A program made the translations under genes and the position numbers. Shown piece by piece: positions 32,223-33,038 of a stretch of DNA of 57,824 nt (position 1 is its first letter; each line of letters starts with the position of its first letter). This DNA comes from an uncultured Clostridium sp. (GTDB taxonomy: Bacteria > Bacillota_I > Bacilli_A > RF39 > UBA660). The stretch spans positions 1 through 57,824 of the forward strand of contig CANEGO010000007.1 in NCBI GenBank assembly GCA_947427095.1, in the 5' to 3' direction. The notes under the pieces were generated by a model. It was not told where the DNA came from. It saw only the letters and a list, made by a program, of their open reading frames with translations, and did not search any database.

Positions 32223-32245
32223 ATGTTTTAAAACATCTATTTTTT
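32214..32245. terminator. Bidirectional terminator, 32-bp perfect palindrome
   Basis: Arms 32214-32229 and 32230-32245 are exact reverse complements centred on TTTTAAAA, with A- and T-runs at either end. It serves the convergent RNase J and TasA-like genes and overlaps both coding ends. Confidence 0.85.
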
Positions 32246-32924
32246 AATTAGTTGGACATTGAACCTTATTATATAAAACATCATCAATCTCCGATATATC
32301 ACTACCATCAATAAAACCATCGTGATTAAAATCATACATTGTCGGACAGCTTATTGGATCTTCTGGATCTAATATATAACTAGCACAATCATTAACAATT
32401 TGTTCCATTTTTTTTAATTCATTACAGGCTTCCACCTTATTTGCTACCTGCTTATATCCAACTTCCAATACTACTGTTGCATTTTCCTCCTCTGTACTAT
32501 TATTATTTTCATCCCAGTATATTCTTATGGTTGAAGCTTTTATATCATTAGAAGCATAATATAAGTTATTAATAACAAAATATGTTTTTATTCGCTCGGT
32601 CTCTCCTTTTATATTATATCCCGTATAAAGTGCATCTATCGTTCCTGCGTTCTTAACGCTATAAGTCACATCTACATATGCTCCTGGGTATTCTAAACGA
32701 GGAATATTTATTGTAAGTATTTTTCCATCAGCACTTATATTTGTGGTTGCCCCACTAGATCCAGTCTCTTTAGATATACTTGCATTTAACATTTTTATAT
32801 TAAAATCCCCTTTTGCTGTTGCAGTACCATTAATTGTAATAGTCTCACTAAATATTGCATAACCTACCATCATGGTTACCATAAGGGCTAACACTCCTAT
32901 TATTATTCCTTTTTGTTTATTCAT
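32244..32924 (-). CDS. TasA/camelysin-like secreted protein with C-terminal EF-hand
   Basis: A 226-residue surface protein. Residues 6-25 are a signal or anchor helix (GIIIGVLALMVTMMVGYAIF) followed by SETITINGTATAKGDFNI, a pattern of SipW-processed TasA/camelysin-type proteins. Residues 40-160 are a beta-rich domain. The C-terminus (198-209) is a canonical 12-residue calcium loop, D-F-N-H-D-G-F-I-D-G-S-D, as in dockerin repeats, but only one copy is present. Four cysteines near the C-terminus may form disulfides. The gene sits behind a promoter with a G9 tract in the spacer. TasA-like assembly is a guess. Confidence 0.7.
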   Translation of the reverse strand: MNKQKGIIIGVLALMVTMMVGYAIFSETITINGTATAKGDFNIKMLNASISKETGSSGATTNISADGKILTINIPRLEYPGAYVDVTYSVKNAGTIDALYTGYNIKGETERIKTYFVINNLYYASNDIKASTIRIYWDENNNSTEEENATVVLEVGYKQVANKVEACNELKKMEQIVNDCASYILDPEDPISCPTMYDFNHDGFIDGSDISEIDDVLYNKVQCPTN

Positions 32925-32961
32925 ACATTTACTCCTTTACTACCTTTATTATTACCTATTC

Positions 32962-32989
32962 ATAATAACATATACCCCCCCCCAGTCAA
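32962..32989 (-). promoter_or_regulatory. Candidate phase-variable promoter (G9 in the spacer)
   Basis: On the minus strand TTGACT (32984-32989) is followed by nine Gs (C9 at 32975-32983), seven more bases, then TATTAT (32962-32967). The spacer is 16 bases, one short of the 17-base optimum, and a run of nine identical Gs within it is prone to slippage. AAAGGAG then leads to the TasA-like gene start at 32924. Confidence 0.65.
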
Positions 32990-33014
32990 TATTTTAAAAA
33001 CTTGTGTAAAATAA

Positions 33015-33038
33015 AAAAGATAGTCTTAACTATCTTTT
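33015..33038 (-). terminator. Terminator of the two-component system
   Basis: AAAAGATAGT (33015-33024) and ACTATCTTTT (33029-33038) form a 10-bp stem with a 4-base loop, overlapping the histidine kinase stop codon region and followed by a T-run on the minus strand. Confidence 0.75.

Follow-up and report, generated by a model that had tools for sequence, protein, structure and literature searches.

A poly-G promoter spacer in an uncultured gut Bacilli genome is a candidate phase-variable switch, one of about 21 such promoters in its genome

A run of nine Gs occupies the promoter spacer of a secreted-protein gene in the 57,824-nt stretch of DNA analysed here (the window), which comes from the genome of an uncultured gut bacterium. 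It is likely that transcription of this gene is tuned by slipped-strand mispairing in the manner of Neisseria porA, within a regulon characterised by a DnaA-type box. The promoter is one of about 21 of this design in the genome. Through these slip-prone promoters, individual cells could very probably turn many surface proteins up or down at random.

The predicted promoter lies on the minus strand. Its -35 hexamer TTGACT (32,984-32,989) is followed directly by the G9 homopolymer (32,975-32,983; C9 on the plus strand) and then by TATATGT (32,968-32,974), whose last five bases, TATGT (32,968-32,972), make up an extended -10 or -16 region in which TGT (the TGN motif) precedes the predicted -10 hexamer TATTAT (32,962-32,967), giving a 16-nt spacer. 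Downstream on the same strand are a ribosome-binding site, AAAGGAG (32,932-32,938), and the ATG of a gene for a 226-aa secreted protein of TasA/SipW-type-like character (32,244-32,924), which starts 50 nt from the tract. A DnaA-box-like element, TTTTACACA (33,003-33,011, minus strand), sits 13 nt 5' of the -35 and belongs to the motif class that this genome also has at its oriC. The initial annotation had described TTGACT and TATTAT flanking a 16-base spacer with nine Gs on the minus strand, and its coordinates, spacer and run length are all exact. It had also called the tract the longest G/C run in an AT-rich window, which is correct: the second longest run in these 57.8 kb of 28% G+C is 6. 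Under a first-order Markov model, G/C runs of 9 or more are expected 0.017 times per window and about 0.4 times per 1.28-Mb genome; the genome has 22. The -35/-10 pair by itself is unremarkable (9 promoter-like matches in 1 kb vs 6.7 in shuffles). The strength of the promoter call derives from the recurrence of the pattern genome-wide and not from a lone -35/-10 pair.

The source genome (1.28 Mb, 27 contigs, 93% complete) contains 22 G-runs of 8 or more, and every one of them is at least 9 long: 13 runs of 6-7 were counted, none of 8, eight of nine, eight of ten, five of eleven and one G16. All but one of the 22 sit between TTGAC(N) and a -10 hexamer, which is TATTAT in 14 of these 21 promoters. 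An ORF starts 35-54 nt past the tract in 20 of the 21, and the remaining promoter leaves its contig ahead of the start codon. A search of the same genome for TTGACN-G8 returned 16 matches vs 0 for the reversed control.

The genus is Candidatus Aphodocola, a group of uncultured gut Bacilli; this naming rests on one relative, G010, whose sequence does not differ from that of Ca. Aphodocola excrementigallinarum DVMT01000059.1. With one genome compared per Aphodocola species, G-runs of 8 or more are present in 13/18 genomes, at 2 to 31 each. Outside the genus, TTGACN-G8 also occurs in 8 sampled genomes of the same family, whereas approximately 340 sampled genomes from other families of the class all lack it (control 0). 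Among the matches listed in a pattern scan of named genomes, similar promoters were found in other uncultured gut Bacilli and Clostridia, with single cases elsewhere. Also among the matches listed are three TTGACA-G13/14 promoter-like sites (L128, L164, L174) in an uncultured alphaproteobacterial MAG, E02__bin238, apparently a parallel case in another phylum, and single promoter-like sites in Anaerocaecibacter muris (L143, G14), Helicobacter labacensis (L191, G16) and Ca. Avitreponema (L132, G14). Contig C27 of genome G014 (L279) carries seven tracts in a tandem array of short secreted-protein genes, one poly-G promoter per gene, and further arrays of this kind, again with a separate poly-G promoter for every gene, were seen at L265, L269-L271 and L275.

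Across 112 poly-G promoters, tract length ranges from 8 to 11 (commonest 9) and the spacer from 14 to 21 nt, and an extended -10 TGN is present in 109. In the main class (n=84), TTGAC stands directly before the tract and the spacer is 16 nt in 55 promoters and 17 nt in 16; in the second class (n=28), TTGAC is followed by 2-5 nt before the tract and spacers are mostly 17-20. Tract and flank lengths offset each other (r=-0.31), and total spacing varies less than it would under independent tract and flank lengths (p=0.0016, 10,000 permutations), a test in which promoters were treated as independent and relatedness ignored, the promoter counts being phylogenetically non-independent. Total spacing is constrained and therefore seems to matter to how the promoter works, as it must in a spacing switch. 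The tract has G on the sense strand in all 112 promoters and C in none, a bias that slippage alone does not demand; common descent or a strand requirement are possible reasons for it.

Tract length differs between closely comparable copies. Orthologues of a sigma-factor-like gene have G10, G10 and G8 in G000, G008 and G006, respectively, a group of genes encoding MGVxKN-VGRPS ranges from G8 to G10 over six species, and tandem copies in G014 have G10 and G9 within flanks that are identical for 49 nt upstream and 116 nt downstream. A further case is found at contig ends. The last features on contig C22 are a GerM-like gene and a promoter with G11, and contig C10, reversed, starts with the same promoter with G10, followed by a TasA-like gene and dgkB. 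The end of C22 and C10 overlap by exactly 55 nt, as do the starts of C10 and C6, which is the signature of an assembler's de Bruijn word of 55. In five relatives (G004, G006, G007, G010, G012) dgkB comes immediately after the GerM-like gene, so C22 and C10 are halves of one locus. Since this one locus has both G11 and G10, reads of both lengths existed, indicating that both alleles were present in the sampled population; PCR or sequencing slippage could account for this in part. An assembler normally discards rare variants. At the window locus one allele is visible, the consensus G9, and the homologue in G016 likewise has G9. The initial annotation had proposed comparing tract length among relatives; across the set it runs from 8 to 11, with orthologues differing, and is not fixed at nine.

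A porA-like mechanism would work as follows. G9 would be the segment at which a sigma-70-type promoter with an extended -10 is prone to slip. Replication slippage, presumably frequent, would add or remove single Gs and change the -35/-10 spacing, here 16 nt. The same slippage step would move the DnaA-box-like site by one base relative to the -10 and RNA polymerase. Tract length would tune or switch transcription of the secreted-protein gene randomly from cell to cell, as in Neisseria porA, and with about 21 independent tracts a population may hold many combinations of surface states. Loss of mismatch repair was considered as a driver of slippage and rejected, as MutS is present in 17/18 genomes.

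The porA promoter of Neisseria meningitidis likewise has a poly-G tract of 9-11 G between -35 and -10, ahead of a surface-protein gene, with expression graded by length: 11G gives high expression, 10G 2.2-fold lower and 9G 13-fold lower (PMC3639595). Taking porA as a yardstick, transcription here would be expected to respond when the 16-nt spacer gains or loses one base, and the extended -10 may soften the effect. Unlike the promoters described here, about 21 in an uncultured member of the gut Bacilli, porA is one gene in a Gram-negative pathogen, and its excerpted account describes no DnaA-box-like element (PMC3639595). In Neisseria nadA, an SSR lies between NadR operators and its repeat length alters the spacing between upstream element and core promoter (PMC2791445), as does that of the T-tract rheostat of Helicobacter pylori sabA (PMC4081817). 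In both of these the repeat is upstream of the core promoter, whereas the Aphodocola tract lies inside the -35/-10 spacer and would alter both distances at once. The vlp lipoprotein genes of Mycoplasma hyorhinis form a surface family with a homopolymer promoter per gene in a small AT-rich genome; they resemble the present set as a surface gene family with its own homopolymer promoters, but the homopolymer is poly-A and the gene family is another one.

The upstream box, of the form TTTTNCACA and approximately 13 nt from the -35, did not figure in the initial annotation, nor did the regulon. TTWTNCACA is found upstream in 76/98 Aphodocola poly-G promoters vs a mean of 2.7 and a maximum of 7 in dinucleotide shuffles. 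Of the 76, 65 have the box start 44-46 nt before the -10, and 61 have 13-14 nt between box and -35. Few poly-G promoters outside Aphodocola carry it (2/20 and 0/11). A search for the combined pattern TTTTNCACA-TTGAC-TATTAT gave about 85 matches, spread over 15/18 congeners, and the control gave none. In approximately 14 of the combined-pattern promoters the G run is broken or decayed (e.g. GGTGGGGGG, GGGGAGGGGGG) and box, -35 and -10 are retained, as expected of switches locked by mutation. The box motif is the DnaA-box consensus, and at the oriC of the window's genome TTTTCCACA, with some TTATCCACA, is clustered immediately 5' of dnaA and again in the stretch separating dnaA from dnaN. DnaA may bind these promoters. 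In a second promoter group (L040:814-6373, L036), an extra TAATCCACA/TAATGCACA right after the -10 means that DnaA-box-like sequences flank the promoter on both sides. Tentatively, the Aphodocola surface regulon might run on composite promoters, in which the DnaA box would couple transcription to DnaA, and with it to replication or growth state, and the poly-G spacer would add random slippage; a tract change could then shift both the -35/-10 spacing and the geometry between DnaA and RNA polymerase, joining cell-cycle control with phase variation.

These promoters can also be read in another way: the G tract may be a fixed structural or protein-binding element whose length differences are neutral, with control exerted by the upstream DnaA-box-like element. 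The fixed place of TTWTNCACA in 76/98 promoters of the genus fits such an element, as does the confinement of G to the sense strand. Nearly all tracts in G014 are G9 (27/30 exactly 9), a greater uniformity than a highly mutable tract should show and thus a point against switching, and extended -10 promoters are less dependent on -35 spacing, which counts against it as well. However, the roughly 14 box promoters with interrupted tracts keep their box, -35 and -10, showing that a pure G9 is not strictly needed; lengths of 8-11 within a constrained total suggest that selection acts on the spacing; and G10 and G11 occur at one locus. I consider a fixed element unlikely. The slippage-tuned promoter, put forward in the initial annotation as a candidate phase-variable switch, is strengthened by the 21 like promoters in one genome, by the 13/18 congeners, by the length differences among orthologues and by G10/G11 at one sister locus.

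Judging from predicted translations, poly-G promoters seem mostly to drive surface proteins. A hydrophobic N-terminus is found in 77/99 poly-G-driven ORFs (from the genus and two other genera) vs 10/46 ORFs of the window. About 11 of the 21 promoters drive paralogues of the window protein (MNKxKGIIIGVLALMVTMMVGYAIFSETITINGTATAKG...), and the other poly-G-driven genes encode lipoproteins, two sigma-factor-like proteins and proteins without family; searches of these other genes against Pfam and NCBIfam gave mostly no family.

The window protein itself had been called TasA-like with an EF-hand, and the first of these labels holds in part. An EF-hand or dockerin-like loop, DFNHDGFIDGSD (residues 198-209; 32,298-32,333, minus strand), can be read in the translation by eye as DxNxDGxIDxxD, but Pfam gave it no score. 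The TasA likeness finds support in 39% identity to one TasA-like paralogue in a cluster with a SipW-like peptidase and in a weak match of the family profile to the archaeal bundling pilin AbpX (E=0.001), but the window protein matched no TasA or camelysin model in Pfam or NCBIfam. That cluster, on contig C3 (L355:4450-9252), contains the SipW-like signal peptidase, TasA-like paralogues with ordinary promoters and a LysM/GH25-like protein, and is probably the core matrix-protein locus. The peptidase (L355:7461-8657) scores 93.9 bits against TIGR02228 (cut-off 51.85) and 60 bits against the SipW model, below its cut-off of 190; a core paralogue scores 15.3 against the SipW-type signal peptide model TIGR04088 (cut-off 19). 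The AlphaFold model of the window protein has a pLDDT of 70, and about 90 in its beta-sandwich; Foldseek and VIA-align matched it to generic Ig-like and adaptin-ear folds (Z up to 7.0), none of these matches being decisive, with TasA absent among the matches listed. As with Bacillus subtilis TasA and SipW, a SipW-like peptidase lies beside paralogues that are short secreted beta-sandwich proteins; unlike B. subtilis TasA, there is no TasA family-model match here, and the core paralogues have ordinary promoters whereas satellite paralogues are poly-G controlled. On present sequence comparisons, TasA/SipW-type-like would be a fair description of the window protein.

By comparison with congeners, the window promoter and gene form an accessory cassette, an 800-nt unit (32,223-33,025, minus strand), between RNase J and a histidine kinase. 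In six congeners without the cassette (G002, G003, G004, G005, G006, G010), RNase J and the histidine kinase converge across a short gap. Next to RNase J, G016 has a homologue of the window gene and G014 has a different poly-G surface gene. Promoter and gene seem to be gained and lost together. The tract could then be carried along passively in a promoter cassette that is copied together with surface genes, varying in length with no selected switching role, a reading to which the site empty in six congeners, the other poly-G gene beside RNase J in G014 and the promoter sequence common to paralogues all lend themselves. However, the design recurs before genes that have no relation to one another (sigma-factor-like, GNAT-like, lipoproteins), other genera of the family have it with different flanks, and tracts of G9-11 in a genome of 28% G+C would be expected to erode without selection. 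A mere passenger is very improbable. That the tracts are a sequencing or assembly artefact, such as poly-G from two-colour chemistry, is scarcely credible and was rejected for 21/22 of them: the G16 at the end of contig C2 (L037 end) does look like an assembly or sequencing artefact, but the tracts are contig-internal, share one promoter context, come from several independent studies (including that of Ca. Aphodocola excrementigallinarum) and have 0 control matches.

None of the papers found reports poly-G promoter switching in this group; they concern known pathogens or commensals. The class of mechanism is already known; what looks new is its scale, its host and the composite architecture. 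Homopolymer switches of the promoter type have mostly been described one gene at a time, in pathogens adapted to a host, whereas here some two dozen near-identical putative switches per genome occur in an uncultured commensal gut genus, as well as in other genera of its family. This suggests that varying the surface at random is central to the way of life of these gut Bacilli with their small genomes, and the DnaA-box-like element raises a new possible link between replication control and phase variation.

Finally, two genes under poly-G promoters in the window's genome encode proteins that resemble sigma-70 and have long additional domains, which in one of the two include TPR repeats: L045:1037-3457 (806 aa, G10) and L033 from 3288 on the minus strand (at least 1096 aa, G9). 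A defence role for the 806-aa protein was considered and rejected, as its PADLOC match to MzaA spans the sigma-70 domains only. Genes resembling that of the 806-aa protein are poly-G controlled in two other species (L055 in G008, L292 in G006), and if a sigma factor were switched at random, entire sets of genes could change state with it.
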